Translations under genes and position numbers: made by a program
The notes under the pieces: generated by a model
What the model saw: the letters and a program-made list of their open reading frames with translations, nothing else
Database searches by the model: none
What the model was told of the DNA's origin: nothing
Part shown: positions 7,071 to 29,048 of the stretch, one piece after another
Position numbering within the stretch: the first letter of the stretch is position 1
Layout of the letters: each line of letters starts with the position of its first letter
Source of the DNA: Desulfobacteraceae bacterium
GTDB lineage: Bacteria; Desulfobacterota; Desulfobacteria; Desulfobacterales; UBA2174
NCBI GenBank assembly: GCA_028700185.1
Contig: JAQVTF010000003.1
Location: forward strand, 1 to 58,060
Reading direction: 5' to 3'
Length of the DNA stretch: 58,060 bases

Positions 7071-8006
7071 CTATTGGACCAGTGGCAGGTCCGGATGACG
7101 GTGGTGCACCATCTGCTTCAACTGGGTCATCCTGCCGTCGGCCAACGCGGTTTCAGCGATTTCATAGGTGCGCCCCAGGTAGCCGTATTTGGGCGTTCCC
7201 ATCCGGTGATAGGCGAGCATTTCGTAACGCACCCGGGGCATCCCGGCGATGAAGTCGACGATGGCGGCGATGGCCTCCGCGTTGTCATTGATCCCCGGGA
7301 TGATCGGGGTCCGCACCAGGACCGGCAGTTGGGGGCAGGCCTGGCGTACCTGTTTCAGGTTGGAAAGGATCAGGGCGTTGGAAACGCCGGTGTACTGGCG
7401 GTGCAGCGAATCATCCATGATCTTCAGGTCGTAGATGAGGGTGTTGAGGTGGGCCGCGGCGGATACCAGATCCGCCGTCCGGCAGTGGCCGCAGGTTTCC
7501 ATGGCGGTGTTGATGCGGTGCCGACGCGCCTCTTCCAGCAGGGCGATGGCGAAGGCGGGCTGATGCATCGGTTCCCCGCCGCTGAGGGTCAGACCGCCGC
7601 CGCTTCGTGCGTAGAAAACGCCGTCCCGCTCCACCGCCTCGAGCACCTGTGCCACCGAGGTCGTTTCGCCGTAACCCCACAGCGCCTTAGCGGGGCAGGC
7701 ATCGGTACACAGCAGGCATTGGGTGCACAGGCGCCGGTCGATGCGCGGCCGGTTGTCGTCATTTTTGTGAATGGCCCCGGGGGTGCAGATTTCCAGGCAA
7801 CGGACGCAGTGGTCGAAGGTCAGGCACCGCTCCGGGTTGTAGGCCAGTTCAGGCGTTGCGGATTGACTCTCGGGGTTGGAGCACCAGATGCAGCGCAGGG
7901 GACACCCCTTGAAAAAAGCGATGGTGCGGATTCCCGGCCCATCATGGACCGAAAATTGCTGGATGTTGAACAGGATTCCTTTGACCCGGGCGTTGGGTGT
8001 TCCCAT
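7071..8006 (-). CDS. Glycyl-radical enzyme activating enzyme (radical SAM)
   Basis: FSVHDGPGIRTIAFFKGCPLRCIWCSNPES, 4Fe-4S ferredoxin insert (CTQCLLCTDACP), LSGGEP. Confidence 0.93.
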   Translation of the reverse strand: MGTPNARVKGILFNIQQFSVHDGPGIRTIAFFKGCPLRCIWCSNPESQSATPELAYNPERCLTFDHCVRCLEICTPGAIHKNDDNRPRIDRRLCTQCLLCTDACPAKALWGYGETTSVAQVLEAVERDGVFYARSGGGLTLSGGEPMHQPAFAIALLEEARRHRINTAMETCGHCRTADLVSAAAHLNTLIYDLKIMDDSLHRQYTGVSNALILSNLKQVRQACPQLPVLVRTPIIPGINDNAEAIAAIVDFIAGMPRVRYEMLAYHRMGTPKYGYLGRTYEIAETALADGRMTQLKQMVHHRHPDLPLVQ

Positions 8007-8163
8007 GGTACCTCACTTGGCGCATCGGTGCCTGGCCGGTTCGAACACGCACCGATTGCCGGCTCGATGAAGCCGGGTTGTCAAAAAGATGCACCGGCCT
8101 GGGGTAGGCGGCGGGCAACGCGCCGGTGGCCGGCCCTTCTGCCCGCCGGGCCCCTCGGGAGGC

Positions 8164-11062: not shown

Positions 11063-12628
11063 TTAAAACTTGGTGGGCCAATTGGCCAGGCGGTGCTCAC
11101 CGATGCCGCCGTTGCGGCTGTCGCGGATGATCGAAAGCACCCGGATCAGGTAGTCCCTGGTCTGGCGCGGGTCGATGACGTCCTGGATGAAATACCCCTC
11201 GGCGGCCGGATACGGCGAGGAGTCGGCCACCATCAGGGCCACCATCTCCTGGCGCTCTTTTTCCGAGAGGTTGCCGAAGACCACATCGGCGGCGATGCTC
11301 GGTTCCATAAAGCCGAGTTCCGCGGTGGGCCAGGCCACGAAGTAGTCCGGTCCGGCGCCGGGACCGCACATGTTCGCCGCCGCCTGGCCGTAGGACTTGC
11401 GGATGACGATGGCGATCTTGGGCACCGTCACCTGGCACAGGGCCTGGAGGTTGTTCACCACCTTGGCGCCCACCCGGTTTTTTTCCGCCTCCAGGCCCAC
11501 CATGTGGCCGGGGGTGTCATGGAGAAAGATGATGGGGATGTTGAACGAATCACAGAGGCACAGGAAGCTGGTGTGCTTCTCCAGGCCGTCGGTGTCCATG
11601 GCGCCCACGTTGTGGATCGGGTTGTTGGCGATGAAGCCCACCACCTCGCCGTCGATGCGCGCCAGGCAGGTGATGAGCATCTTGCCGAAGTTGGGCTTGA
11701 GCTCGAAGATCTCGCCGCCGTCCACCATGCAGGCGATGATCCGGTGCATGTCGTAGCTGCGGTTGCGCCGCTCGGGCAGGAAATCCAGGATCCGCGCCAT
11801 GTTCCTACCCGATCCTTCGGGAACCGGCCGCCGCGGCGGACGCTGGTGGTGGTTCTGGGGCATGTAGTCGAGGAAGGCGCGGATCTGGGCGAAGCAGTCG
11901 TCTTCGTTTTCGGCCACGCGGTCGGCGATGCCGGTGATCTCGTCGTGGATGCGCCAGCCGCCCATCTCTTCGCCGGTGAAGCGCTGGCCGATGGCCCGGC
12001 TCAGGGCCCGCGGCCCGGATACGGACAGGGCGCTGCCCTTGACCTGGATCACGCAGTCGGCCAGCATGGCCTCGAAATCCGGTACCCCGTAGCACTCGCC
12101 CATGGCGGCCATGACAAAGGGCATCTGCCGGAAGTGGGTGTACTCGGCATAGAGGGTGTGGGTGCCGCCGCCGCCCAGGGTACAGATGTTGCGGGCCCCT
12201 TGGCAGTCGGGCATCCGCGCCCCGCCGGCCTCGCCGAGCCAGATCAAGGGCACCTGGTCCGCCTTGACCCGGGTCTTGAACGCGAGCATCTTCTTCAGGT
12301 TGATGCGGGCGTTGGTGGCCGCCAGAACGGTGAAATCGTTGGCGATGATACCCACCCGGCGGCCGTCGAGGCCGCCGTAGCCGCAGATGAGCCCGTCGGC
12401 GGGGGTGCGTGCCTGCATGCCCGGCATATCGGAGACGGCCAACTGGCCGAACTCGAGAAACGAGTCCGGATCCAGGAGCCGCTGGATGCGTTCCCGGGCC
12501 GTCAGCTTGCCGGCGGCATGCTGCTTGGCCACTTTTTCAGCGCCCCCCATCTCCAGGGCCCTGGCTCTTTTCTGCGCCAACTGATCGAGAAGTTCTTCAA
12601 AGGCCATCGGCTTTTTTTCCTTCAACAA
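11063..12628 (-). CDS. Acyl-CoA carboxylase carboxyltransferase subunit (PCC/MCC beta-like)
   Basis: AAGKLTARERIQRLLDPDSFLEFG, HDTPGHMVG, IRKSYGQAAANMCGPGAGPD. Confidence 0.9.
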   Translation of the reverse strand: MLKEKKPMAFEELLDQLAQKRARALEMGGAEKVAKQHAAGKLTARERIQRLLDPDSFLEFGQLAVSDMPGMQARTPADGLICGYGGLDGRRVGIIANDFTVLAATNARINLKKMLAFKTRVKADQVPLIWLGEAGGARMPDCQGARNICTLGGGGTHTLYAEYTHFRQMPFVMAAMGECYGVPDFEAMLADCVIQVKGSALSVSGPRALSRAIGQRFTGEEMGGWRIHDEITGIADRVAENEDDCFAQIRAFLDYMPQNHHQRPPRRPVPEGSGRNMARILDFLPERRNRSYDMHRIIACMVDGGEIFELKPNFGKMLITCLARIDGEVVGFIANNPIHNVGAMDTDGLEKHTSFLCLCDSFNIPIIFLHDTPGHMVGLEAEKNRVGAKVVNNLQALCQVTVPKIAIVIRKSYGQAAANMCGPGAGPDYFVAWPTAELGFMEPSIAADVVFGNLSEKERQEMVALMVADSSPYPAAEGYFIQDVIDPRQTRDYLIRVLSIIRDSRNGGIGEHRLANWPTKF

Positions 12629-12663
12629 CGGGGCTACGCAAGGCGGCGCGGCGGCAAAAACCC

Positions 12664-12693
12664 TTGTGCCCGGCGTGCAGCGTTCGCTATAAT
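12664..12693 (+). promoter_or_regulatory. Putative sigma70 promoter for TetR gene
   Basis: TTGTGC-N18-TATAAT upstream of TetR start. Confidence 0.45.
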
Positions 12694-12793
12694 GATTGCT
12701 GTTCGATTTTTAAAACCTTTGCGCACTCTCAAACCTTCTTCCGTGCCGTGGGTCCCTGTCAGGATCGATCCGGCCGGAATGCCGAGTGGCCGG

Positions 12794-13435
12794 ATGCCCA
12801 AAAAAAACACCCTGACCAAACTCAAGGCGCAGGAACGTCAGGTCCGCCGCGACCTGATCATTGATGCCGCCCAGCGGATCTTCGGTACCAAGACCTACGA
12901 TCGCACCAGCATGCGCGAAATCGCCGAGGAGGCCGGAATCGCCGCCTCGACGATCTATACCTATTTCCCCAACCAGGAAACGCTCTTCGTCGAAGCGATG
13001 GTGCGGGACACCGGCGGCCTCATCGACGAGCTGGAGCAGATGCTGACGGAAGAGGGCGACATCGATATCGAGCGGTTCATGAACCGCTACCTGGACTTTT
13101 ACATCGACCATGAAACCCACTGGCGCATGATCACGCACTTTTTTCTCTTCGGGCAGATCGGCCCCGCCTCATCGGCCCGACTCAATGAAGTGGCCCGCCG
13201 GTTGCTGAACATCTTCGATGGGATCTTCGCCCAGATGAACTATGCCGGGGACGTCCGTCTGCTCTCCCATACCTTTTTTTCCGCCCTGAGCGGGATCCTG
13301 ATCTCCTTTCGCAAGTATCCGGGCCGCGACGACGATCAGGTGCGGGCTCACATGAAACGCATCGGCAGGATGGTACGCGACATGCTCATGACCCATATCG
13401 CCGCCAGGGAGAAAACCGTCCCGCCGATGCCCTGA
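12794..13435 (+). CDS. TetR/AcrR family transcriptional regulator
   Basis: IIDAAQRIFGTKTYDRTSMREIAEEAGIAASTIYTYFPNQETLF HTH; the 780-aa ORF start upstream is antisense to the carboxyltransferase and is not used. Confidence 0.9.
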   Translation: MPKKNTLTKLKAQERQVRRDLIIDAAQRIFGTKTYDRTSMREIAEEAGIAASTIYTYFPNQETLFVEAMVRDTGGLIDELEQMLTEEGDIDIERFMNRYLDFYIDHETHWRMITHFFLFGQIGPASSARLNEVARRLLNIFDGIFAQMNYAGDVRLLSHTFFSALSGILISFRKYPGRDDDQVRAHMKRIGRMVRDMLMTHIAAREKTVPPMP

Positions 13436-13447
13436 GATTTTTTTGCA

Positions 13448-13687
13448 TCATTCCATGACCAGCAGCACCTGCTGGGCCAGAACCTTGTCGCCGGGCTTGA
13501 CCCGCACCTCGGCAACCGTCCCCGGGTCCCGGGCGCAGACGGGGTTTTCCATCTTCATGGATTCCAGAATCAACAGCTCCTGGTTTTCATCGACATTCTG
13601 TCCCGGCGCGATCAGCACCTCGATGATCGTCCCCGGCATGGGGGCCTTGATTTCCGTCATGTTTTTTTCTCCCTTGTCGTTGTGCAA
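13448..13687 (-). CDS. Biotin carboxyl carrier protein (biotin/lipoyl attachment domain)
   Basis: ESMKMENPV biotinylation motif, 79 aa. Confidence 0.92.
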   Translation of the reverse strand: MHNDKGEKNMTEIKAPMPGTIIEVLIAPGQNVDENQELLILESMKMENPVCARDPGTVAEVRVKPGDKVLAQQVLLVME

Positions 13688-13702
13688 GATCCACCGACGA
13701 CG

Positions 13703-15253
13703 TCAGATGTAGTTTTGCAACGACCGTTGCAGCTCCTTCTTGGCCACCTTGCCGATGGACGAGCGCGGCACATCGGTGGTGACGATGATCCGGCTGGGCT
13801 GCTTGTAGTCGGCCAGTCCCTTCTTGCAGTAGGCCTTGATTTCTTCACTGGTGATCGCGGCGCCTTCTTCCGGCACCACGAAGGCATAACCGGTTTCCCC
13901 CCAGATCGGATGGGGGCCGGAAACCACCGCCGAGGTATTCACCCCGGGATAGGCGTTCAGATAGATTTCGATTTCCAGGGGATAGACATTGTAGCCGCCG
14001 CTTTTGTACATCTCCTTACAGCGACCGACGTAGTGCAGATAGTTCCGTTGGTCCAGAAAGCCGAGATCGCCGGTGCGGAACCAGCCCTGGTGGAACGCCC
14101 CGGCGTTGTCCTTTTCATCCATGTAGCCTGAAATGACGCTGTCGCCCCGGATGAGCAATTCTCCCACCTCCCCGGGAGGCGCCCAGGTGTCGTCCAGTCG
14201 CATGACCCGCATCTGAAAATCCAGGGCCGGGGGCCCCTCGGTCTCGATGATGGTCTGAAAGTCGTCGTCCGGTTTTGTGAAGGTGAAGAAACCGGCGGTT
14301 TCGCTCATGCCGAAACTGGCGAAAATCGTGGCCTTGGGGAAGGCGGCATGCAGCCGTTCCATGAATTCCGGGGTCTGGGGTTCGCCGGAAACGATGAGCT
14401 TGGTCACCGAGGACGTGTCGTAGTCGGCCAGATTGCAGTTTTTGAACATCAGCCGGAACATGGTGGGGACCCCGCCGGTGAGGGTGATGCGGTGGGCCTG
14501 GATGATTTCGAGCATCTCCTTGGGGTCGAACCTCGGGCAGAGCACCGCCGTCGAGCCGGCGTAGAGCTGGTGGGCGATGAGGTCGTGGGTGCCGGCCACA
14601 TGACTGGTGGGCATGTTGATGATGGTGCGGTCGGTATGGTGGACGCCACCGGATTCCACCGTCGCCTTGGCGATGGCCCAGGAGTTTTTGTGGCTGATCA
14701 CTGCTCCCTTCGGTTTGCCGGTGGTGCCGCTGGTGAAGATGACGATCAGCGGATCGTCCGGCTTGGGGTGAAAGCGTTGGGGCACCGGGTCCGGCGCGCC
14801 CTGGAGCAGTTGCTCGAACGGCTGGGCACCCGGAGTGGATAGATTGCCGAAGTAGCTGTAAACATGGGAAAAGGAATAAAGCTGGGTCAGGGTTTCGGTC
14901 TTTTCGCGAAAGGGGTCCGGGTAGGCGAGCCCCACGAGGAGTTTCGGCTTGGCCCGTTCGCAGAGCGCCTGCATCTCCTGGGGGGTGTCCCGGGGATCCA
15001 GCGGGATGAGTACCAGCCCCATGGTGGCGGCGGCCATGTAGAGGGTCACGAAGGCCGGTGACTGGGGCAAGATGGTGGCGATGCGGTCCCCGGGAACCAG
15101 CCCCAGGGCGATCATGGCGTTGGCGGTGCGTTGGACCATCTCGTTGAACTGCCCGTAGGTGATCGACTGGCCCATGAAGATGTAAGCCACGTGATCGGGA
15201 CGGGCGGCGGCGTGATTTTCCACCAGCCTGGCAAAATAGGGAACCATGCGCAT
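13703..15253 (-). CDS. AMP-dependent acyl-CoA synthetase/ligase
   Basis: IFTSGTTGKPKGAVISH, RTGDLGFLD, GGYNVYPLEIE. Confidence 0.9.
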   Translation of the reverse strand: MRMVPYFARLVENHAAARPDHVAYIFMGQSITYGQFNEMVQRTANAMIALGLVPGDRIATILPQSPAFVTLYMAAATMGLVLIPLDPRDTPQEMQALCERAKPKLLVGLAYPDPFREKTETLTQLYSFSHVYSYFGNLSTPGAQPFEQLLQGAPDPVPQRFHPKPDDPLIVIFTSGTTGKPKGAVISHKNSWAIAKATVESGGVHHTDRTIINMPTSHVAGTHDLIAHQLYAGSTAVLCPRFDPKEMLEIIQAHRITLTGGVPTMFRLMFKNCNLADYDTSSVTKLIVSGEPQTPEFMERLHAAFPKATIFASFGMSETAGFFTFTKPDDDFQTIIETEGPPALDFQMRVMRLDDTWAPPGEVGELLIRGDSVISGYMDEKDNAGAFHQGWFRTGDLGFLDQRNYLHYVGRCKEMYKSGGYNVYPLEIEIYLNAYPGVNTSAVVSGPHPIWGETGYAFVVPEEGAAITSEEIKAYCKKGLADYKQPSRIIVTTDVPRSSIGKVAKKELQRSLQNYI

Positions 15254-15292
15254 TGCTCCTTTTTGGCTTTGGCGTTGTTGGCTTCTCTTCCG

Positions 15293-16855
15293 TTAACAGC
15301 GCATCCCCCGGCCTTTGGGGCCCAGATGCAGCCGTTCTCCTTCGAAGGCCAGCGCCACCCAGCGGCAGAGCAGGGGGCGGGTGTCCCGGGGGTCGATGAT
15401 GTCCTCGATGCCGAAGTGTTCAGCGGCCCGGAAGGGTTGGGCGAAACCGGCGTAGTAGGCCTGGAGGGCTTCATGCCGGGCCATGGGATCGGGGTCCGCC
15501 AGGATTTCGGCCTTGTGGGCGGCAAAGACGCCGCCTTCGATGGGAATGTTGCCCCAGTAGGCCGAAGGCCAAGCGTAGCGCCAGTTGAGTTTGCGCGGAT
15601 CGCTCTGGGCCCCGCCGGCCACCCCGAAACATTTGCGGATGTAAATCGAGGCCCAGGGAATGGTGGCCTGGAGCACGGCGAAACTGGCCCGTACCCCCTT
15701 GCGGATCGTGCCCTGGTGTTCGGCTTCGACGCCGATGAAAAAGCCCGGCTGGTCGATGAGGTTGACCACGGGCAGATGAAACGTGTCGCACAGGTCCACG
15801 AAACGCTGGAACTTTTCGGCCACGTCCCAGGAAAAGGCCCCGGCCTTGTGGCGCACGTCGCTGGCCAGGACCCCCACGGGATAGCCGTCCAGGCGCGCCA
15901 GGGCCGTGATCTGGGAGCAGCCCTGGTCCCGGCCGATTTCGAAGATCGAGTCGCGGTCGAACACCGCCGTCATGATCCGGCGCATGTCGTAGGTTTTTTT
16001 CCCCTCCCGGGGCACGATGGAAAGGAGGCTTTCATCCCGGCGGTCCGGGTCATCGCGTTCGGCGTATTTGCGTTGGGGCATCTCCCAGACGTTGGCGGGC
16101 AGGTAGTCGAGAAAGCGGCGGGTCTGGGCCATGGCGTCGGCTTCATCCTCGGCCAGGTTGTCCACCACCCCGCTGATGCGGGTGTGAATCTTGTACCCGC
16201 CCAGCTCCTCCTTGGTGACGCGCTGCCCCTGGGCCCATTCCACCAGCGGCGGGCCGCCGACGAAGACCTGGCTCTTTTCCTTCACCATGACGGAAAAATG
16301 GGATTCCACCGTGAGCAGGGCACCGATCCCCGATACCGGCCCGAGCACCAGGGACACCATCGGCACCCGGGACATCATGTCGGCGAGCATCCCGGGCGCC
16401 ACGTCGTTGATGTAGGGCAACTCCAGGTAGCCGATCTGGGCCACCTCGCGGATGGTGCCGCCGGCGCCGTCGAGGAGGCGAATCAACGGCAGGCGCAGTT
16501 CGTAGGCCATCTTGCCGTTGTAGGCCAGCTTGGCCTTGTACATCCGGCCCACCGAAGCGCCCCGGATGGTGAAATCGTCTCCCTGGACCACCACCGGCCG
16601 GCCGTCGATGCGGCCGAGACCCATGACGATGGGACACGGCGTGAACGCTTCCAGGTGGCGGTTCTGGGCGTCGTAGCGCCCTTCGCCGGTAAGGGCCCCG
16701 GTTTCGCTGAACGAATCCGGGTCGAGCAGCGCCGCGATCCGCTCACGAACCGTCATTTTGCCGGCGGCATGCTGGCGGGCCACCGATTCGGCGCCCCCCA
16801 TTTCCTCTGCCCGGGCCTTGCGCCGGGCCAGTTCCTCAACTTCTTTTTGCCACAT
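15293..16855 (-). CDS. Acyl-CoA carboxylase carboxyltransferase subunit (second paralog)
   Basis: AAGKMTVRERIAALLDPDSFSETG, LIDQPGFFIGVEAE, IRKCFGVAGGAQSD. Confidence 0.9.
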   Translation of the reverse strand: MWQKEVEELARRKARAEEMGGAESVARQHAAGKMTVRERIAALLDPDSFSETGALTGEGRYDAQNRHLEAFTPCPIVMGLGRIDGRPVVVQGDDFTIRGASVGRMYKAKLAYNGKMAYELRLPLIRLLDGAGGTIREVAQIGYLELPYINDVAPGMLADMMSRVPMVSLVLGPVSGIGALLTVESHFSVMVKEKSQVFVGGPPLVEWAQGQRVTKEELGGYKIHTRISGVVDNLAEDEADAMAQTRRFLDYLPANVWEMPQRKYAERDDPDRRDESLLSIVPREGKKTYDMRRIMTAVFDRDSIFEIGRDQGCSQITALARLDGYPVGVLASDVRHKAGAFSWDVAEKFQRFVDLCDTFHLPVVNLIDQPGFFIGVEAEHQGTIRKGVRASFAVLQATIPWASIYIRKCFGVAGGAQSDPRKLNWRYAWPSAYWGNIPIEGGVFAAHKAEILADPDPMARHEALQAYYAGFAQPFRAAEHFGIEDIIDPRDTRPLLCRWVALAFEGERLHLGPKGRGMRC

Positions 16856-16885
16856 GTGGCTTCTTTCCTTTCCCAGGGACTGTTT

Positions 16886-18574
16886 TCATCCCTTGCGCCG
16901 GGCCGCCTCCATGTCGCGCAACTGTTTGCGCAACACCTTCTGGATGGGCGACTTGGGCAGTTGATCGATGAATTCCACCTGGCGTGGATACTTGTAGGCG
17001 GCCATGTTGGCCTTGCCGTAGGCGATGATATCCGCCTCGGTGACCTTTCCCCTGTAGGCATCGGCCAGGACCACGAAGGCCTTGACCGTCTCGCCGCGGT
17101 ATTCGTCCGGCACTCCGATCACCGCCACCTCCTGGATTGCCGGATGCCGCAGCAGGACCGATTCGACGTCCGCCGGCGCGATATTGTAAGCCGAAGCGAT
17201 GATCAGGTCCTTTTCCCGGTCCACGAAATAGAGAAACCCGTCCTCGTCCATGGTGCCGATGTCGCCGGTGCGCAGCCACCCGTCCACGAAGGTTTTGGCC
17301 GTCTCTTCGGGCTTGTTCCAGTATCCCTTGGCCACCTGGGGGCCTCTGAACCAGATTTCGCCCCGCTCGCCGATGGGTACCGGACGGCCCTGGCTGTCGG
17401 CGATTTTGACCTCTCCGCCCAGCGGAACGCCCAGGGCATCGAGGTTATACTTGTTGGGCAGGGAGACGATGGCGCCGGCGGTGGTTTCCGTCAGCCCGTA
17501 GCCGTTGAGCAGGTCAAGATTGGTGCGTTGGCGCCACCGGGCCTGAATCGCCTGGGGCACCGGTGCGCCGGAAGCGCCGGAAATCCGCAGGGCCGAAAGG
17601 TCGTAGCGGTCCAGGTCGGGGAGGGCGAGAAAGGCGATGTACACCGTCGGGGGGGCAAAAAAAATCGTCACCCGGTATTTGTCGAGAATCCGGACGTAAC
17701 GCCTGGCGTCGAAGCGCGGTTCCAGGATGGTGGTGCCGCCGTCGTAGAACATGCAGATGGTGGCCAGCAGGTAGCCGGAGATGTGAAACAGGGGAAAGAG
17801 CACCAGGTTGATGTCTTCGGGGGTCATGGCGAAGTTTTCCGCCTGGTTGGCCGCGTTGTAGACGAAATTGCGGTGGGTGAGCATCACCCCCTTGCTCTTG
17901 CCGGTGGTACCGGCGGTATAGAGGATCATCATGGTGGCGTCGAAATCGACCTCCGCCGTGGGCGCCGGGGCCGGACCGCCGGTGTTGAGCAGGTCGAGGT
18001 AGCGGTGGATGTTTTTGCCGAAGGCGACTTTGGGGCGGCTGCCGTCCAGGCGGCTCTTGACCCGGTAGAGCAGATTTTTGGGGAAACCGAGAAAATCGTC
18101 GATGCCGGTGACCACGATGCGTTCCACCGCCGTATCCGCTGCCGCCGCCTTCACGTTTTCGAAGAACAGGTCCAGGGTCACCACGAGGCGAATGCCGGCG
18201 TCCTCGAAAATGTAGCGAAGCTCCTCCGGGCCGTACATCACGTTGGCCGGTACGTGGATGGCCCCCAGCCGGTTGGCGGCCAGAAAAGCGATGATATGCT
18301 GGGGGCAGTTGGGCAGCACCACCCCGACGCGGTCTCCCGCCTTGATCCCGAAATTCGCAAGAGCCGCGGCAAAACGGCCCACCTCATCGTCCAGGGCACG
18401 GTAGGAGATGGACCGATCCAGGAAGATCAGGGCCGGTTTTTGCGGGTGGTGGCGGGCACTGCGGGCGAACATGGCATAGGTGGTCATTTCATCGACTGGC
18501 GGAGTGGGCCTCAGCCCCCAGGACGGATCGTAAGACACTCGGGAAAGGGATGTCATGGTTTCCTCCGGCCGCAA
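16886..18574 (-). CDS. Long-chain-fatty-acid-CoA ligase-like AMP-dependent synthetase
   Basis: LYTAGTTGKSKGVMLTHRN, GYGLTET, LRTGDIGTMDEDGF. Confidence 0.92.
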   Translation of the reverse strand: MRPEETMTSLSRVSYDPSWGLRPTPPVDEMTTYAMFARSARHHPQKPALIFLDRSISYRALDDEVGRFAAALANFGIKAGDRVGVVLPNCPQHIIAFLAANRLGAIHVPANVMYGPEELRYIFEDAGIRLVVTLDLFFENVKAAAADTAVERIVVTGIDDFLGFPKNLLYRVKSRLDGSRPKVAFGKNIHRYLDLLNTGGPAPAPTAEVDFDATMMILYTAGTTGKSKGVMLTHRNFVYNAANQAENFAMTPEDINLVLFPLFHISGYLLATICMFYDGGTTILEPRFDARRYVRILDKYRVTIFFAPPTVYIAFLALPDLDRYDLSALRISGASGAPVPQAIQARWRQRTNLDLLNGYGLTETTAGAIVSLPNKYNLDALGVPLGGEVKIADSQGRPVPIGERGEIWFRGPQVAKGYWNKPEETAKTFVDGWLRTGDIGTMDEDGFLYFVDREKDLIIASAYNIAPADVESVLLRHPAIQEVAVIGVPDEYRGETVKAFVVLADAYRGKVTEADIIAYGKANMAAYKYPRQVEFIDQLPKSPIQKVLRKQLRDMEAARRKG

Positions 18575-18824: not shown

Positions 18825-20084
18825 ATGACGCATCCCATCGATTACAGGGGGTTTTACCTCGTTTTTCGCGAAATCAGCCGCCTGGTGCACTCCACCAGCA
18901 GCGTGGACGAGGTGATTCGGCTGGCCGTGTACAAGACCACCGAACTCCTCTACGCCAAAGGCACGTTGATGCGGGTGCGCAATCCGGACACCGGTGAATT
19001 CGAGGTGGCCGCGGCCTGCGGCATTGCCGAACGCTTTCTCGACAAGCCTCCCGTCTCCTGCGAAAAGATCATGGAAGACCTCCAGGGGGGCGAAAAGGTG
19101 CGGATCTTTCGCGACATCTGGGCCGCCCCGCGAACCGATTCCCCCCAGCAGGTCTGGGATGAAGGGGTGCGCATGATCCTGGACGTGCCCCTTTACCATG
19201 ACGAGGAATTGCTCGGCCTGATCCGGGCCTACCTGTCCGACGCCCATGGTTTCGAACAGGCCGAACTCGATTTTGTCGTCTCCCTGGGGGAACAGTGCGC
19301 CTGTGCCCTCAACAAGGCCCGCCTCATCGAAACCCAGCGTAGCCAGTACAATCGGCTGGTTTTGCAAACGGAGAAGCTTTCGGCCCTCGGGCGCATGGCC
19401 GCCGGCATCGCCCATGAGATCAACAATCCGCTGGCGGGGATCCTGCTCTACAGCTCCAACATGCTCAAGAAGGCGGGGCCGGAGAGCCCGTTTCGCCAGG
19501 GGTTGGAGATCATCGTTCGCGAAACGAGCCGGTGCAAGGGGATCATTCAGGAACTCTTGGAGTTTTCCCGTCACAAACCGCCCAAGAAATGTCCGGCCAA
19601 AATCAACGAGATCATCGAAAAGGCGCTGAGCATCGTGGACAACGAAATGATGCTGCGTCATATCAAGGTGGAAAAGCGTCTGGCCCGGGACATGGAGAAT
19701 ATTCTCCTCGACGGCAACCAGATGGAGCAGGTCTTCATCAACCTGCTGCTCAATGCGGCCCAGGCCATCGACAAGAACGGTCACATCGTCATCGAAACGC
19801 GGATGGACCCTTGCCGGCGGATAGAGATCGTGGAGATCACCGATGACGGTTGCGGGATTGCCCCCATAGATGCCACCCGGCTTTTCGAACCGTTCTATTC
19901 CAACAAGAACACCGGCACCGGCCTGGGTCTGGCGGTGAGCTACGGCATCGTGCGCAACCACAACGGCCACATCAAAGTGGCGAGCAAGCTGGGCGGCGGG
20001 ACCCGTTTCACCATCGAGTTGCCGGTCCACGTCGGCTCCGGTGCCGATACCTCCGACAGAGGAACCGAGCATGGAACCCCTTGA
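18825..20084 (+). CDS. GAF-domain sensor histidine kinase
   Basis: AAGIAHEINNPLAGIL H-box, NLLLNAAQAI N-box, TDDGCGIAP, GTGLGLAVSYGIV. Confidence 0.92.
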   Translation: MTHPIDYRGFYLVFREISRLVHSTSSVDEVIRLAVYKTTELLYAKGTLMRVRNPDTGEFEVAAACGIAERFLDKPPVSCEKIMEDLQGGEKVRIFRDIWAAPRTDSPQQVWDEGVRMILDVPLYHDEELLGLIRAYLSDAHGFEQAELDFVVSLGEQCACALNKARLIETQRSQYNRLVLQTEKLSALGRMAAGIAHEINNPLAGILLYSSNMLKKAGPESPFRQGLEIIVRETSRCKGIIQELLEFSRHKPPKKCPAKINEIIEKALSIVDNEMMLRHIKVEKRLARDMENILLDGNQMEQVFINLLLNAAQAIDKNGHIVIETRMDPCRRIEIVEITDDGCGIAPIDATRLFEPFYSNKNTGTGLGLAVSYGIVRNHNGHIKVASKLGGGTRFTIELPVHVGSGADTSDRGTEHGTP

Positions 20085-21471
20085 TATTCTGGTCATTGAC
20101 GACGAACCGGTCATTTGTGACGGTTGCCGGTTGGTGCTCAACGATGCCGGTCACCGGGTAAAGACCCATGTGAGCGGCTGTGCCGGATTGGACGCTTTTT
20201 TCCAGGGCCGCTTCGACGTGGTACTGCTGGACCTCAAGCTCCCCGATGCGGACGGAATGGAGATTCTGGAGGCGATTCACAGTCGCAACCCGAACGTATA
20301 TGTCATCGTCATGACGGGATATTCCACCGTCAGCAACGCCATTGCGGCCATGAAGGCGGGGGCCTTCGATTTCTTGCCCAAACCTTTCAGCGACGACGAG
20401 TTGAATATCGTTCTGGATCGGGTCCTGGAAAATCGTCGCCTGGTGATGGAAAACCTCTCCATGCGGCGCCAGCTCACCGAACCGTTTCATTTTCACAACA
20501 TCATCGGTGAGAATCCGGCCATCCTGAAAATCTTCGATCAAATCAAAAAGGTGGCCCCCACCGACAGCACCGTGCTCATCTACGGCGAAAGCGGAACGGG
20601 CAAGGAGCTCTTCGCCCGGGCAATCCACGCCTACAGCCAGCGGGCGGCGCACCAACTCGTGGCCCTGGACTGTAGCACCCTGGCACCCGGGGTGCTGGAG
20701 AGCGAGCTCTTCGGACACGTCCGCGGATCTTTTTCCGGAGCGGTCAAGGACAAGCCGGGGATCTTCGAAGTGGCCAGCGCCAGCACCCTTTTTCTGGACG
20801 AAATCTCCGGCTTGAGCCTGGAGATCCAGGGCAAGCTCCTGAGGGTGATGGAATCGGGGGAATTCAAGCGGGTCGGTGCCACGACGGAGCAAAAGACCAA
20901 GGCGCGCATCATCGCCGCCTCCAACCGGGACCTGAAGGCCATGGTGGACGAGGGGCGCTTCCGTGAGGACCTCTTTTACCGGCTCAGCGTTTTTCCCATT
21001 TTCATCCCCCCGCTGCGGGAGCGGCGGGACGACATCCCGCGTCTGGCCAACCATTTTTTGAAACTCTTTAACAAGAAAACCAGCAAGCGCATCGACGGGT
21101 TCACCGACGAGGCGATGGATCTGCTGGTCAACCAGAACTGGCCAGGCAACGTGCGCCAGCTCAAAAACGTCGTCGAACGCCTCGTGATTCTCTCCGACCG
21201 CCGTTTCCTGGACATCGTCTACCTGCTTGACAACCTTCAGTCCCGGCCCAGCGCCGACGCCCCCAGCGTTCCCGAGTCCCTCGCCGAACTCAAGGCTGCC
21301 AAACAGCAACTCCTCGATGAAACTTTCGGGCAGATAGAAAAGGCCTTCATCCTCAAGGCCCTCCAGGAAACCAAGGGCAACATCAGCCAGGCGGCGGCCA
21401 AGGTGGGCATGCAGCGGTCCAACTTTCACGCGCTGATGCGCAAGCATGGCATCAGCGGCGATCAAGTCTGA
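20071..21471 (+). CDS. Sigma54-dependent response regulator (NtrC/AtoC-type)
   Basis: Receiver DILVIDDEPVICDG, GESGTGKELFARAIH, ELFGHVRGSFSGA, Fis HTH; overlaps kinase gene end. Confidence 0.92.
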   Translation: MEPLDILVIDDEPVICDGCRLVLNDAGHRVKTHVSGCAGLDAFFQGRFDVVLLDLKLPDADGMEILEAIHSRNPNVYVIVMTGYSTVSNAIAAMKAGAFDFLPKPFSDDELNIVLDRVLENRRLVMENLSMRRQLTEPFHFHNIIGENPAILKIFDQIKKVAPTDSTVLIYGESGTGKELFARAIHAYSQRAAHQLVALDCSTLAPGVLESELFGHVRGSFSGAVKDKPGIFEVASASTLFLDEISGLSLEIQGKLLRVMESGEFKRVGATTEQKTKARIIAASNRDLKAMVDEGRFREDLFYRLSVFPIFIPPLRERRDDIPRLANHFLKLFNKKTSKRIDGFTDEAMDLLVNQNWPGNVRQLKNVVERLVILSDRRFLDIVYLLDNLQSRPSADAPSVPESLAELKAAKQQLLDETFGQIEKAFILKALQETKGNISQAAAKVGMQRSNFHALMRKHGISGDQV

Positions 21472-21723: not shown

Positions 21724-21740
21724 TCGGCACGCCCTTTGCT
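21724..21740 (+). promoter_or_regulatory. Sigma54 promoter driving receiver/hdrA/mvhD/fdh operon
   Basis: TCGGCACGCCCTTTGCT: GG-N10-GC, matches GGCACG-N4-TTGCT; 77 bp before ATG. Confidence 0.78.
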
Positions 21741-21816: not shown

Positions 21817-22506
21817 ATGAACGCACAGGCCCAAACCGTGGACAGAGACGAAGCACAGGACGTACGGATCCTTTTGATGGAAGACGAGAACGTGGTGGCT
21901 GAAGGCTTGAAGATGATCCTTTCCGAGGACGGCTACCGGGTTGAGATCGCCGGCACGGGCAACGGCGCCCTGGAGCAGTTTCACAGTCAATCCTACGACC
22001 TGTTGGTGGCGGATTTGCGCCTGCCGGACATCGACGGCATGGAGGTCATCAAGCAGATCAAGGCCGAAAAGCCGGAGACCAACGTGATTGTGATCACCGG
22101 CTACTCCACGGTGGACACGGCGGTGGAGGCGATGCGTTACGGCGCGTCGGACTACCTGGCCAAACCGTTCACCGAGGAGCAGATTCGATCGGCGGTGGAA
22201 AAGACCCTCAAGGGCAAGAAAACCCGCACCGCGCCGATGGAAACCCCGGCGGCGGACGAGGCGTCGCGGGCGCTCATCGAGAAACGCGAGGTGATGCGGG
22301 TGCTCAACCGCACCAGCGAGGACGGGGCCTTCTGGAATGCCCTGATGGAAAAAGGATCCGATGCGCTGGTCAACTACGAACTGTCCGACGAGGCCAAGGC
22401 GGCCATCGTTTCCGGTGACCTGGGATGGATCAACGCCCACATCGGTGAACTGACCCAAAAACAACTCATGTTCATCTACAAGCGTCTGGAGCGGGAGGCC
22501 TGGTAA
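21817..22506 (+). CDS. Response regulator (receiver domain) with small C-terminal domain
   Basis: [53 protein letters not shown] before ATG 21817. Confidence 0.88.
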
Positions 22507-22564
22507 AAACCGGGCCACCGGCCTCGGCGCGGATCGATTTCAACGCCCAACCGTGGAGTTCGAC

Positions 22565-25500
22565 ATGACGATTTCCAACGCAGCGCAACCCAAGGGGGCG
22601 GTCCTGGTCGCCGGTGGCGGCATCGCCGGCATGCAGGCCGCCCTGGACATGGCAGACGCGGGATTTTTCGTTTATTTGGTGGAACGCTCGCCGTCCATCG
22701 GCGGCGTGATGGCCCAGCTGGACAAGACTTTCCCCACCAACGATTGCTCGATGTGAATCCTGGCCCCCAAACTGGTCGAGGTCGGCCGGCACAACAACAT
22801 CGAGCTGATTACCCTGGCGGAAGTCGAGTCCATCCAAGGCGCTCCGGGCGATTTCCAGGTGCAGGTGCGCCAGCACCCGCGCTACGTGGATATGGACAAG
22901 TGCATCGCCTGTGGCCAATGCGCCGCCAAATGTCCCAAGAAGGTCGATGACGAGTACAACGCGGGGCTCAACAAGCGTAAGGCGATTTACGTGCCCTACA
23001 GCCAGGCGGTGCCCCTGAAGTACGCCATCGATCCGCGCTACTGCATCTACCTGCAAAAGGGGCGCTGCGGGGTCTGCGCCAAGGTTTGTCCCTCGGGTGC
23101 CATCAATTTTGAAGACACCGAGAAGATGCGGACCATCGAGGTGGGGTCGGTGATCCTGGCCCCGGGGTTTCGCAGCTTCGATCCCGGTCGTCTCGATACT
23201 TACAGCTACGGCCAGGCTCCCAATGTAATCACGGCCGTGGAGTTTGAGCGCATCCTTTCAGCCACTGGTCCCTTCGGCGGCCACCTGGTGAAACCGTCGG
23301 CGGCCAAGGCGGGCACGGCGCCCAAAAAAATCGCCTGGATTCAGTGCGTCGGTTCCCGGGATATCAACCGCTGCGATCACGGTTACTGTTCGTCGGTGTG
23401 CTGCATGTATGCCGTCAAACAGGCCGTGATGGCTCGCGATCACAGCAGCGGCGATCTGGAGTGCGCCATTTTCTACATGGACATGCGCACCCAGGGCAAG
23501 GATTTCGACCGTTACCTGGAAAACGCCAAAAAGAGCGGGATCCGTTTCGAGCGTGCCCGGGTGCACTCGGTGGCGCCGCCCCAGCACGGCGATGACCTCA
23601 CGTTGCGCTACGCCCGGCAGAACGGGGACATCGCGGAGGAAACCTTCGATATCGTCGTGCTTTCCACCGGTCTTGAAATCGCTCCCGAATCGGTGGCCCT
23701 GGCCGAAAAACTTGGTGTCCCCCTCAACTCCGACCACTTCGCCGCCACCGACAGCTTCGCCCCGGTGGCCACGGGAAAACCGGGCATTTTCGCCTGCGGG
23801 GCCTTCACCGGGCCCAAGGATATCCCCCACTCGGTGATGGAGGCCAGCGCGGCGGCGGCGGCGGCCACCGAATCGCTGTCCGTGGCCCGCCACAGCCAAA
23901 CGCATACATTGGTTCTGCCGAAGGAAACCGACGTCAGCGGTCAGGCGCCGCGGATCGGGGTCTTCGTCTGCAACTGCGGCATCAACATCGGCGGGGTGGT
24001 GCGGGTGCCGGAGGTGGCCGAGTACGCCCGCACGCTGCCCAACGTCACCTACGTGGAGGAAAATCTCTTCACCTGCTCCCAGGACACCCAGGACAAGATG
24101 GCCGAGGTCATCGCCCGCGAAAAGCTCAACCGGGTGGTGGTGGCGGCCTGCACGCCCCGGACCCACGAGCCGCTCTTCCAGGCCACCCTGGCCAGCGCCG
24201 GGCTCAACCGCTACCTCTTCGAAATGGCCAACATCCGCAATCAGGACTCCTGGGTCCATGCCAACGATCCGGATGCCGCCACGCGCAAGGCCAAGGACCT
24301 GGTGGCCATGGCCGTGGCCAAGGCGGCCCTGCTCACCCCGTTGACCCAGACCGAGCTGCCCATGAGCCGCAACGCGCTGGTGGTGGGCGGCGGCATCGCC
24401 GGCCTGACGGCGGCCCGGGCTCTGGCACGCCAGGGTTTCCCGGTTCACCTGGTGGAAAAGAGCGATGTTTTGGGCGGCCACGGCCGGCGCCTGCGCGCCA
24501 CTTGGCGCGGTGAGCCGGTGGGCGAGCGTCTCGCCGGATTGATCGCCGATCTCGAGGCCGATCCTTTGGTGCATATCCACACCAACACCGCCGTGACCGA
24601 AGTGGACGGCTTTGTGGGCAATTTCAAGACCCGGATTTCCACCGGCGGCGGCAGCGAAACCATCGACCACGGGGTGGCGATCCTGGCCACCGGAGCCAAG
24701 GAGTACAAGCCCAAGGAGTATCTGTACGGCCAGCATCCGGCCGTGGTGACCCAGACGGAACTCGATGACCTCATCGGCGCTGGCGACGAGCGCCTGGCCG
24801 GCGCCACCGATGTCGTCTTCATCCAGTGCGTCGGGTCGCGCAACGCCGAACGGCCCTACTGTTCCAAGGTCTGCTGCACCCACGCCCTGCGCAACGCCCT
24901 GGCCATCAAGGCCGCATCGCCGGAGACCAACATCTACGTGATCTATCGGGACATGCGAACCTACGGCCTGCGCGAGGAAATCTTCCGCGAAGCCCGGGCC
25001 CAGGGGGTCATGTTCTTCCAGTACGATCCCGAAGCGCCGCCTGCGGTGGAGGCCGAAGGCGACCGGGTGCGGGTGACCTTCCACGACCATATCCTGAACC
25101 GTCCGGTGGCGGTGGATGCCGACTTGCTGGCCCTGGCGGCGGCGGTGGTTTCCGATGCGGAAAACGGCCTGGCCCAGTTTTTCAAGGTGCCGGTGGACGG
25201 CGACGGATGGCTCCTGGAAGCCCACCAGAAGCTGCGGCCGGTGGATTTCGCCACCGACGGGGTGTTCCTCTGCGGGCTGGCCCACTATCCCAAGCCCATC
25301 GATGAGAGCGTTTCCCAGGCCCTGGCCGCGGCGGCCCGGGCGGCCACCTTTCTCGCCCGGGACACGATCCTGGTGGGCGGGGTGGTTTCCTGGATCGATC
25401 CGGCGCTTTGCACCGGTTGTGGCGGGTGCATTCAGGTCTGTCCGTACAACGCCATTGCCATGTCGGAAATCACCGGCATGGCCGAGGTCAACCCGGCCCT

Positions 25501-25612
25501 CTGCAAGGGATGCGGCGCCTGCGCGGCGGCCTGCCCGAGCGAGGCACCGATTTTGATGGGATTCAACAACCGGCAGCTTTACGCGCAGATTCACAGCGCC
25601 TTGGCCGCCTGA
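22565..25612 (+). CDS. hdrA: HdrA-type heterodisulfide reductase subunit A, selenoprotein (UGA 22754-22756 read as Sec); long form with second FAD-binding half
   Basis: [22 protein letters not shown]...[26 protein letters not shown]; multiple CxxCxxC clusters; second [25 protein letters not shown]; frame unchanged across TGA. Confidence 0.92.
22754..22789 (+). promoter_or_regulatory. Sec codon and candidate bacterial SECIS hairpin in hdrA
   Basis: UGA, then 7-bp stem CTGGTCG (22772-22778)/CGGCCGG (22783-22789, with G.U pairs), loop AGGU 22 nt after UGA. Confidence 0.7.
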
Positions 25613-25634
25613 AACGGTATCGAGGGGGAAAACA

Positions 25635-26162
25635 GTGAACCCGGAACCATTCGAACCGAAGATTGTCGCTTTTTTCTGTAACTGGTGCACTTACGGGGCC
25701 GCGGACCTCGCCGGCGTCAGCCGCCTGAGCTATCCGCCCAACATCCGGGCCATCCGGGTGATGTGCTCGGCGACCGTGTCCCCCCACCACGTGCTCAAGG
25801 CCTTCCAAGAGGGGGCCGACGGTGTTCTGGTGGGCGGGTGACACATCGGCGACTGCCATTACCTGTACGGTAATCACATGACATTGAAACGGATGACCTT
25901 TCTCCAGCACCTGCTTACCTTCATGGGGCTGGAGGGACGGCTCCACCTGGAATGGATCTCTTCAGCCGAGGCTCAGAAATTCGTCGCCACGGTCACCGGA
26001 TTCACCGAAACGATCCGTCGGCTCGGCCCCAGTCCGCTGAGGATCGCCGCCTCGCGGCAAGCGGATGACGCAACGATGTCGCCAATGCCCCAAAGCGGAT
26101 GCCTCGACTTGCCCAAAACCGATGCCGTGCCGGAGACCGGCGTCCAGATCGCCAACGGATGA
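25635..26162 (+). CDS. mvhD: MvhD-family electron-transfer protein, selenoprotein (UGA 25839-25841 read as Sec)
   Basis: [36 protein letters not shown]...[21 protein letters not shown]; frame continuous across TGA to 26162. Confidence 0.92.
25839..25874 (+). promoter_or_regulatory. Sec codon and candidate SECIS hairpin in mvhD
   Basis: UGA followed by perfect 6-bp stem ATTACC (25858-25863)/GGTAAT (25869-25874), loop UGUAC beginning 22 nt after UGA. Confidence 0.65.
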
Positions 26163-26992
26163 GTGCCATGACACCGATTCAAGAACAAGTGCACCAGTGG
26201 CTGGAAGAAGAGCGGGTGGACATTTTTTTGGCCTACCGCATCGTCGAGGGCCATCCCTTGCCCTATGCCTTTACCCGTGAGCACATCGAGGAAACCGGGG
26301 AGTTGGTCACCGGACCGGCCCGTTACAGCCTGGAAAAATTTGCCACCCACATCGCCTCCCGCTACCCCGACGCCCGCATCGGCATGGTGGCCCGGGACTG
26401 CAACCAGCGGGCGTTGAACGTGCTGCGGGTGTGGAACCAGCTCAAGGAAGGCCAGGTGGAGACAGTGTCGGTGAACTGCTGTCCCTCGGACCTTCGCGCC
26501 CACGCGGACTGTTCCTACCTGGAACGCCGTCCGGTGGGGGTGGTGAAGCAGCAACTCGGCCAGGTGCCCAACCAAGCCGTGGCCGATGTTGACGCCCAGC
26601 CGTCGGCCGAACGTTTCGATCGCTGGATGTACGAGTTTCAGAAATGCATCAAATGTTACGGTTGCCGCAACATCTGCCCGGTGTGCTTTTGCAACGAATG
26701 CAGCCTGGAGCATGCCGAGCTCATCGGCACCGGCCATCTGCCCCCCGACATCCCGATCTTTCATCTAGTGCGGGCCGTCCACATGGCCGGCCGCTGTATC
26801 GACTGCGGTCTCTGCGAGGATGCCTGCCCCGCTGAAATTCCCCTGCGGCTGCTTTACCGCAAGGTTAACGCCATCGTTAAAGATCTCTTTGAATACGAAA
26901 CGGGCTCCGGCGACACCCTGCCGCCCTTTTCCATTCTGGGCCCAAAGCCCACGATGAGCCCGACGCCGCTATTGGCGGTTGCACAGGAGTAA
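26159..26992 (+). CDS. 4Fe-4S dicluster electron-transfer subunit (FdhB/Hdr-associated ferredoxin-like)
   Basis: CIKCYGCRNICPVCFCNEC and CIDCGLCEDACP; ATGA overlap with mvhD stop. Confidence 0.85.
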   Translation: MSAMTPIQEQVHQWLEEERVDIFLAYRIVEGHPLPYAFTREHIEETGELVTGPARYSLEKFATHIASRYPDARIGMVARDCNQRALNVLRVWNQLKEGQVETVSVNCCPSDLRAHADCSYLERRPVGVVKQQLGQVPNQAVADVDAQPSAERFDRWMYEFQKCIKCYGCRNICPVCFCNECSLEHAELIGTGHLPPDIPIFHLVRAVHMAGRCIDCGLCEDACPAEIPLRLLYRKVNAIVKDLFEYETGSGDTLPPFSILGPKPTMSPTPLLAVAQE

Positions 26993-26996
26993 CGGC

Positions 26997-29048
26997 ATGG
27001 AAATGAAATTTGTTCCTTCGATCTGTTCCTACTGTGGCACCGGGTGCGGGGTGCTTTTCGAGGTGCTCGACGGCGAGCTGGTGGGCACCCTGCCGATGAA
27101 GACCCACCCGGTCAACCACGGAAAATTATGCATCAAGGGCTGGAATCTGCACGAGCACATCAACAGCCCCCTGCGCCTCAAGAATCCGTTGCTGAAAACC
27201 TTCGGCCGTTTCACCAAGGTGGATTGGGACAAGGCGATGGATGTCACCGCCGATCGGCTCAAGGCGGTTATCGCCGCCCACGGTCCCGACAGCGTGGGGG
27301 TGCTTGTCTCGGCCAAAATGACCAACGAGGAGAACTACCTGGCCCAGAAGTTCGCCCGGGCCGCCATCGGCACCAACAACGTGGATCACTGCGCCCGGCT
27401 CTGACATGCCTCCACGGTGGCCGGTCTGGCCGCCGCATTCGGCAGTGGTGCCATGACGAATTCCTACGACGACCTGGAAACCGCCGGTTGCATCTTTGTG
27501 GTCGGTTCCAACACCACGGCGTGCCACCCCTTGATTGCCACCCGCATCTACCGCGCCAAGGAACGCGGTGCCCGGGTGATCGTGGCCGATCCGCGTCAGA
27601 CCCAGATCGGAAACCTGGCGGACCTGTCGGTTCACCACCGGCTCGGCAGCGATGTCGCGTTGCTCAACGGGATGATGCACTGGATCATCGAAAACGATTG
27701 GCATGACAAGGATTACATCGCCGCCCGCACCGAGGGCTTCGAGGCGCTGGCGGCCACGGTGGCGGCGTATTCGCCCCAACGGGTCCAAGACATCACTGGG
27801 GTGCCGGCGGATGACATCAAAAAGATGGCCGAGCTCTATGCCACCTGCGGATCCGCGGCCTTACTCTACGCCATGGGCATCACCCAGCACACCACCGGCG
27901 TGGACAATGTCAAGTCGTGCTGCAACATCGCCCTGCTCTGCGGCAACGTGGGGGTGGCCGGCGGAGGCGTCAATCCGCTGCGCGGCCAGAACAACGTCCA
28001 GGGGGCCTGTGACATGGGCGGACTGCCCAACGTGTTCACCGGCTATCAGCCGGTGAGCGATCCGGCCGTGGTGGAAAAATTCTCCAAGGCCTGGGGACGC
28101 CCCCTGTCCGACAAGCCGGGCATGACCATCACCGACATGATCAGCGCCATGCTCGACGGTCGTCTCAAGGCCCTGTACGTCATCGGCGAGAATCCCAAGC
28201 TCTCCGATCCGGATTGGAACCATCTCCAGCATGCCCTCAACCGCCTCGACCTGCTCATCGTCCAGGAGCTGTTCCTGTCGGAAACAGCCCAGATCGCGGA
28301 CGTGGTCCTGCCGGCGGCCTCGGTGGCGGAAAAAGAAGGCACCTTCACCAATTCAGAGCGCCGTTGCAGCCGCATCCAGAAGGCCATCGAGCCGGTGGGC
28401 AACGCCCTGGCCGACTGGCAGATCATCTGCAAGTTGTCCACCGCCATGGGATACCCGATGGATTATCCCGGCGGCCCGGAGCAGATCTTCGATGAGATGG
28501 CGGCCCTGACGCCCAAGAGCTATGCCGGCATGTCCTACCAGCGGATGGGCCTCAATGGCCTGCAATGGCCATGCCCCGACGCAAATCACCCCGGGACCCC
28601 GATTCTGCATACCCAGCAGTGTACCCGGGGGCTCGGAAAGTTCCATGCCATCGAATATCAGGATCCGGCCGAGATGCCCGATGAGGAATATCCTTATTTC
28701 CTGACCACCGGGCGCATGTTTGCTCATTTTCACACCGGCACCATGACGCGTATTTCGTCCCACCTGGATCACGAGCAGCGCAGCGGGTACGTGACCATTC
28801 ACCCGGACGACGCCGCCCGCCTGGAGATCGCCGAAGGAGACCTGGTGGCCATCACGTCGCGTCGCGGCCAGATGGAGGCGCCGGCTCAGATCAGCGCCGA
28901 GGTGCCGCCGGGAAACCTCTTTTTACCGATTCACTTCGGCGAGTACCCGGCCAACATGCTCACCAGCGCCGAGGCCTTCGATCCCCTGGCCAAAATTCCC
29001 GAGTTCAAGGTCAGCGCGGTGCGTATCGCCAAGGCCCAAGCGGCCTGA
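26997..29048 (+). CDS. fdhA: Formate dehydrogenase catalytic subunit, selenoprotein (UGA 27402-27404 read as Sec)
   Basis: CSYCGTGCGVLFEV N-terminal 4Fe-4S, [33 protein letters not shown], molybdopterin oxidoreductase body; frame continuous to 29048. Confidence 0.95.
27402..27434 (+). promoter_or_regulatory. Sec codon and SECIS hairpin in fdhA
   Basis: 7-bp stem GGTGGCC (27416-27422)/GGCCGCC (27428-27434), loop GGUCU starting 18 nt after UGA, as recalled for E. coli fdhF. Confidence 0.85.

Follow-up and report, generated by a model that had tools for sequence, protein, structure and literature searches.

We analysed a 58,060-nt stretch of DNA (the window; contig JAQVTF010000003.1, positions 1 to 58,060) from a Desulfobacteraceae genome assembly (GCA_028700185.1) of 3.29 Mb with an estimated completeness of 94.8%. 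Four genes follow one another on its forward strand. The first, hdrA (22565-25612), encodes an HdrA of 1015 residues that contains two flavin-domain modules and, at its C-terminus, 4Fe-4S motifs. It is followed by mvhD (25635-26162), which starts with GTG and encodes an MvhD/FlpD protein of 175 residues, by fdhB (26168-26992), which encodes a shortened archaeal-type beta subunit with 4Fe-4S motifs, and by fdhA (26997-29048), which encodes the 683-residue alpha subunit of a formate dehydrogenase. The stop codon of fdhB is TAA; the other three genes end with TGA. Counting the window, 23 loci have homologues of these proteins together in one operon, complete or in part. The best overall explanation is that these genes very probably encode a formate dehydrogenase of the cytoplasm that depends on selenium and is linked to a flavin unit of the HdrA type.

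Gene calling with translation table 11 breaks hdrA, mvhD and fdhA exactly at one in-frame TGA each, at positions 22754-22756, 25839-25841 and 27402-27404, all on the forward strand. When these TGAs are read as selenocysteine (Sec), the frames are open on both sides and the codons become Sec64 of HdrA (context NDCSM-U-ILAPK), Sec69 of MvhD (context VLVGG-U-HIGDC) and Sec136 of FdhA, each at a Cys/Sec column of its family. An initial annotation of this DNA had described the three split genes with intact frames and had placed the TGAs at conserved Cys/Sec positions; both the coordinates and the frames were confirmed, and the codons of the homologues agree with the placement. A search of a genome collection with HdrA as query gave 80 loci, whose titles name mostly Desulfobacterota or Deltaproteobacteria lineages. 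Counted over related loci and the window, the HdrA column held TGA in 82 and TGC in 4 of 88 matches, the MvhD column held 69 TGA vs 7 TGC or TGT, and the FdhA column held TGA in 23 of 23 matches. The comparison with Cys homologues that the initial annotation had proposed therefore finds TGC or TGT at the HdrA and MvhD columns.

We defined a syntenic set as the 23 loci with the same type of fdhB, window included, of which 21 extend to the FdhA site. TGA occupies all three sites in every one of these 21 hdrA-mvhD-fdhB-fdhA operons, as well as the HdrA and MvhD sites of 2 further syntenic contigs that stop short of the FdhA site. The operon is present in Desulfopila sp. IMCC35006 and Desulforhopalus sp. 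IMCC35007. Across 395 genomes of the phylum, most of the FdhA relatives listed have a TGA and a few have none. In solved structures, the HdrA column of PDB 9sfi_A is X, a non-standard residue, with Cys in the other HdrA structures listed, and X also stands at the Sec column of FdhA in PDB 9t1s_L. One Desulfobacula locus (L103, 10001-20146) has two hdrA-mvhD pairs before fdhB-fdhA, and all Sec sites seen in it are TGA.

These counts bear directly on two other explanations of the TGAs. The way in which automatic gene calling breaks the genes would fit sequencing errors, or decaying genes with nonsense mutations, but all three TGAs are found again in each of the 21 syntenic operons, which come from many genomes, and the sequence just 3' of them is under constraint and covaries, so that this explanation is extremely improbable. 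A different genetic code, with TGA as a sense codon throughout, would fit the open frames on either side of the TGAs. Against it, HdrA, MvhD and FdhA each terminate with a TGA close to where the family match should end, the Cys homologues carry TGC or TGT at the HdrA and MvhD columns, and the genome has a full Sec machinery. Because the same three genes use TGA for Sec and also as their stop, a general code change is excluded, and we give this possibility practically no weight. The conservation of the TGAs, together with the TGA stops of the same genes, thus led us to reject sequencing error, pseudogenes and an alternative code, and Sec is almost certainly inserted at all three sites.

The machinery needed for this is encoded in the host genome, where the initial annotation had suggested looking for selA, selB, selC and selD. 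All of them were found: selB (366.9 bits), selA (624.1 bits) and selD (378.7 bits) score above their curated cut-offs, and a tRNA-Sec with anticodon TCA (ARAGORN) scores 76.1 bits. The host selD (L018, C264:14559-15482) carries one in-frame TGA of its own, and SelD is probably itself a selenoprotein. Five FDH-alpha loci were found in the genome (in the operon and on C252, C6, C216 and C15), and every one has a single TGA, which makes a strong selenium dependence plausible; the long TGA-free matches have identities of only 24-29%. Formate chemistry thus looks selenium-bound in this organism, as in Methanococcus maripaludis (PMC11097638). Among the HdrA paralogues of the genome, some are again Sec forms, at least two have no TGA, and one of the latter has TGC at the column. 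On contig C267 (21428-25846; L116, L113), a TGA-bearing HdrA paralogue, whose two matching parts lie about 1.4 kb apart, is followed by a Sec-containing MvhD, and DsrC is encoded on the same contig.

Each TGA is followed by a hairpin compatible with a bacterial selenocysteine insertion sequence (bSECIS), as the initial annotation had proposed. On the forward strand, the hairpins lie at 22772-22789 in hdrA (CTGGTCG-AGGT-CGGCCGG; 7 pairs), at 25858-25874 in mvhD (ATTACC-TGTAC-GGTAAT; 6 pairs) and at 27415-27435 in fdhA (CGGTGGCC-GGTCT-GGCCGCCG; supported by covariation). Their apical loops (AGGU, UGUAC and GGUCU, respectively), with G and U in the loop, begin 22, 22 and 18 nt past the TGA. The stop TGAs of the three genes have no strong hairpin of this kind 3' of them. 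The support for the hairpins comes from comparison. The HdrA stem keeps 7/7 pairs in 79 of the 82 Sec homologues and 3-4 of 7 in the Cys homologues, a small sample (n=4); the MvhD stem keeps 6/6 pairs in 63 of the 69 Sec homologues and 2-5 of 6 in a similarly small sample of Cys homologues (n=7). Within the syntenic set, both stems are near-invariant, third codon positions included, while the flanking third positions vary. By third-position entropy, the HdrA hairpin window and an overlapping neighbour ranked lowest of 994 windows, the MvhD hairpin window lowest of 125 and the FdhA hairpin window 9th of 581. Among windows of equally conserved protein, 2 out of 34 in HdrA and 1 out of 25 in MvhD were as strongly constrained, counts that include the hairpin windows themselves.

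The FdhA hairpin could be evaluated by its substitutions. Over 36 distinct sequences, 98.3% of the cells were paired; 4 pairs were altered on both sides, with 34 such cells vs 9.6 in shuffles, none of 500 shuffles reaching that number. The covariation score was 0.385, compared with 0.134 for the shuffles (0 of 500 as high) and at most 0.093 for slid controls. Owing to the third-position constraint in HdrA and MvhD, the compensatory changes in FdhA and the degraded hairpins of the Cys homologues, these comparisons indicate that all three hairpins are under selection. The near absence of variation in the HdrA and MvhD stems leaves little covariation to be seen within them, which would also suit hairpins that serve mainly for pausing or mRNA stability, with the TGAs acting as programmed stops that yield short products. 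We consider this very improbable: the position and loop of the hairpins agree with bSECIS rules, the hairpins are degraded where the homologue has Cys, and conserved protein that matches solved structures continues past the TGAs. In the Sec reading, SelB and tRNA-Sec, together with the downstream bSECIS, would decode each of the three in-frame TGAs as selenocysteine.

The identities of the subunits were assigned with profile models and structures. FdhA scored above the cut-off of TIGR01591 (815.7 vs 666.25 bits) and matched PDB 9t1s_L with an E-value of 2e-230. HdrA matched HdrA chains in the PDB with E-values down to 4e-182, the archaeal HdrA chains being matched in three stretches, and its second flavin module has a Pyr_redox_2 match in Pfam. 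MvhD exceeded the PF02662 cut-off (171.7 vs 22.3 bits) and stayed below that of the VhuD model NF045873 (130.1 vs 215), for which reason we use the family name MvhD/FlpD and not VhuD. The FdhB profile matched both ends of PDB 9t1s_M and 7bkb_E, with E-values down to 1e-43; in these alignments, the window protein lacks a central segment of about 100 residues of the archaeal FdhB. The FrhB_FdhB_N match in the FdhB family is weak and present in only 4 of 25 members, and the F420/FAD domain that characterises methanogen-type FdhB was not found in the window FdhB. The F420/FAD part therefore appears to have been lost, in which case electrons would cross Fe-S clusters only. The predicted model of FdhB has a mean pLDDT of 64.4, weak across the Fe-S part and too weak for a detailed reading; a Foldseek search with it ranked FdhB-type chains first.

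Several observations weigh against a triple-Sec formate dehydrogenase joined to an HdrA-type unit. In a ranking by folding energy, from best to worst, with 69 Cys codons of the operon for comparison, the hairpins came 40th for HdrA, 47th for MvhD and 4th for FdhA; the stability of the first two is unremarkable, and energy alone proves nothing for them. The hairpin score at the stop TGA of mvhD is about the same as at the MvhD Sec site, an Rfam scan of the window gave zero matches, and the exact mvhD hairpin is not kept in 6 of the 69 Sec-containing MvhD genes of the wider set. Two more distant relatives (L139 and L146) pair a Sec-containing FdhA with a Cys-containing MvhD, encoded by TGC or TGT, so that Sec in MvhD is exchangeable and not obligatory. 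HdrA reached 948.9 bits (E-value 2e-285) with the HdrA2 model NF040770 and thus fell short of the cut-off of 1100, for a model that also covers a fused MvhD; by this score the protein is HdrA-like, and we did not assign it to HdrA2. Finally, with regard to a high-potential acceptor, neither hdrB nor hdrC lies within the operon.

With these points taken into account, we still favour the formate dehydrogenase joined to an HdrA-type unit, and HdrA, MvhD, FdhB and FdhA probably form one complex. The recoding sites, the selection on the hairpins, the Sec machinery, the synteny and the homologies of the subunits are seen directly in the data; we infer the assembly of the complex, the electron path, bifurcation, the direction of flow, the regulation and the second electron acceptor. 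FdhA would carry out formate/CO2 chemistry at a Sec-containing molybdopterin site with Mo or W, and electrons would pass through the Fe-S clusters of FdhA and FdhB to MvhD and on to HdrA, a methanogen-like route from Fdh through a VhuD-type subunit to Hdr that we take as the best reading of the operon. At HdrA, the flavins could divide the two electrons from formate between ferredoxin and a second acceptor, or, for CO2 reduction, work in reverse. The initial annotation had called all three redox subunits Sec-dependent; the three selenoproteins stand, but it had missed the fourth subunit, FdhB, which has no Sec. It had also spoken of a Hdr-Mvh-Fdh complex with coupling to low-potential electrons, of which the coupling may hold as a prediction, but the operon contains no Mvh hydrogenase and no hdrBC.

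For electron bifurcation or confurcation itself, the balance of the sequence evidence tips only slightly in favour. A considerable, though smaller, probability belongs to a real triple-Sec complex without bifurcation. In it, HdrA would do no more than conduct electrons, and the activity would be that of a formate:ferredoxin or formate:NAD(P) oxidoreductase, or chiefly that of a CO2 reductase serving a Wood-Ljungdahl-type pathway. The missing hdrBC would fit such an enzyme, as would the Pyr_redox_2 match of the second flavin module and the formate-THF ligase found elsewhere in the genome; in addition, the role of Fdh-Hdr in sulfate reducers is stated as unknown (PMC6085437). On the other hand, HdrA and MvhD match subunits of characterised Hdr complexes, and HdrB-like CCG proteins, along with DsrC, are encoded elsewhere in the genome. 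These CCG proteins could substitute for HdrB/HdrC in a bifurcating complex.

Upstream of hdrA, on the same strand, lies a set of regulatory genes. It begins with a cytosolic sensor histidine kinase of GAF-HisKA-HATPase architecture (18825-20084; Pfam HATPase_c 83.0, HisKA 56.3 and GAF 29.2 bits) and continues with an NtrC-type sigma-54 activator of REC-AAA+-Fis HTH architecture (20068-21471; Sigma54_activat 215.5 bits, with Response_reg and HTH_8). A sigma-54 type -24/-12 promoter-like element, CGGCACGCCCTTTGCT, follows at 21725-21740, and after it a response-regulator receiver (21817-22506; Response_reg 109.7 bits), which is thus the first gene past the sigma-54-like site and stands directly before hdrA. 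The element is the only zero-mismatch sigma-54 match in the window, where matches with at most one mismatch number 3, not above chance. Among related loci, 13 of 19 have a sigma-54-like site scoring at least 10 upstream of the receiver, compared with 2.9% of background windows; these counts, like those of the regulatory genes, come from related loci and are hence not independent. The C-terminal domain of the receiver (about residues 145-229; window 22249-22503) is strongly conserved in an alignment of 18 homologues, and it is helical in an AlphaFold2 model (mean pLDDT 82.7 for the receiver). Pfam gave no match for this part, apart from a weak Frankia_peptide hit in one homologue (E 0.06), and a Foldseek search with the receiver model led to receiver-domain proteins and to no clear relative of the C-terminal domain.

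We compared the upstream genes of 16 Fdh-type loci with enough upstream sequence and of 35 other HdrA loci. In the Fdh-type loci, the receiver was present in 15, the kinase motif in 15 and the NtrC-type motif in at least 12, a number from a motif search that may undercount. In the other loci, the receiver was present in 2, both on contigs too short to classify. The kinase/NtrC-type/receiver module is specific to the Fdh-linked operon type among the loci compared. The receiver, which the initial annotation had called dedicated, is indeed syntenic with the operon, but it is not alone and forms part of this module. In several relatives, the kinase and an additional single-domain receiver sit between the receiver and hdrA, and the gene order inside the module is therefore variable. 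The module most likely controls the operon from a sigma-54 promoter, and we regard sigma-54 control by the neighbouring regulator as likely. A more tentative idea is that, in Desulfobacterota, a conserved signalling module belongs specifically to the Fdh-linked triple-Sec HdrA operon, and that the receiver of this module may bind the complex or the kinase and so tie transcription of an enzyme costly in selenium to the state of formate, redox or selenium. We found no description of this regulatory module in open-licence PMC papers.

Two further gene groups lie on the reverse strand of the window. The genes at 11063-18574, which adjoin the regulatory module, encode two methylmalonyl-CoA decarboxylase alpha-like carboxyltransferases, a biotin carrier protein and two acyl-CoA ligases. 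At 7071-10665, a glycyl-radical enzyme is encoded together with its activating enzyme. We considered this enzyme as a formate source (pyruvate formate-lyase) and rejected the idea, since it scores as a (2S)-3-sulfopropanediol dehydratase (1547 bits, over the cut-off); the pair suggests sulfonate use.

Much of what is seen in the window has counterparts in known systems. In Desulfobacterium autotrophicum HRM2, Hdr loci V and VI hold hdrA/hdrL, mvhD, fdhB and fdhA in one locus, and Sec is reported for hdrA1, hdrA2, hdrL1, hdrL3, mvhD1, 2, 3 and 5, and fdhA1, 3, 5 and 6 (Strittmatter et al. 2009, PMC2702500). This is a sulfate reducer with the same gene set in one locus and with Sec in the same kinds of subunit; the passages of that report on these genes do not state a regulatory module, SECIS conservation or the sharing of Sec within loci V and VI. 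According to the passages of PMC5736913 on the cluster, Desulfobacula toluolica Tol2 and a deep-sea Chloroflexi single-cell genome have HdrBCA-MvhD-FdhBA, in which, likewise, a Sec formate dehydrogenase is associated with Hdr and accompanied by MvhD and an Fe-S type FdhB. There the cluster includes hdrBC, and the Sec status of HdrA and MvhD is not stated in those passages. Sec-containing HdrA, FrhD (of the MvhD family) and FdhA, as well as deltaproteobacterial selenoprotein operons, have been known since 2006, among them the glpC-hdrA-frhD-frhG-frhA operons of Syntrophobacter and Desulfotalea (Zhang et al. 2006, PMC1794560). Those operons also unite several selenoproteins including HdrA and FrhD, but their partner is a hydrogenase and not a formate dehydrogenase. 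In D. multivorans, Sec occurs in HdrA, MvhD and FdhA at separate places (PMC5109826).

Among archaea, the Hdr-Vhu-Fdh system of M. maripaludis passes formate electrons to HdrABC via VhuD (PMC6019823), and growth of this organism on formate requires selenium, its FdhA having no Cys isoform (PMC11097638). It shares with the window Sec forms of HdrA (HdrAU), VhuD and FdhA (PMC6019823, PMC11097638). It differs in being archaeal, in having HdrBC and in having Fdh outside an operon of this order, and an NtrC-type module is not described for it. The Fdh-Hdr structures PDB 7bkb (Methanospirillum hungatei) and 9sfi/9t1s contain homologues of HdrA, MvhD, FdhB and FdhA; their FdhB has 383-414 residues vs 274 in the window, their HdrA is shorter than the window HdrA, and the window operon is without hdrBC.

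Set against these systems, the triple-Sec arrangement is not unprecedented (PMC2702500, PMC1794560, PMC5109826, PMC11097638) and the enzyme type is already known, while the regulation is a modest new angle. What the comparison adds is that many Desulfobacterota genomes keep three Sec-dependent subunits of a single formate/Hdr enzyme in one place, with good comparative support for each SECIS. Ordinary annotation splits hdrA, mvhD and fdhA and thereby hides the enzyme. The short conserved FdhB and the dedicated regulatory module provide handles on the role of Fdh-Hdr in sulfate reducers.

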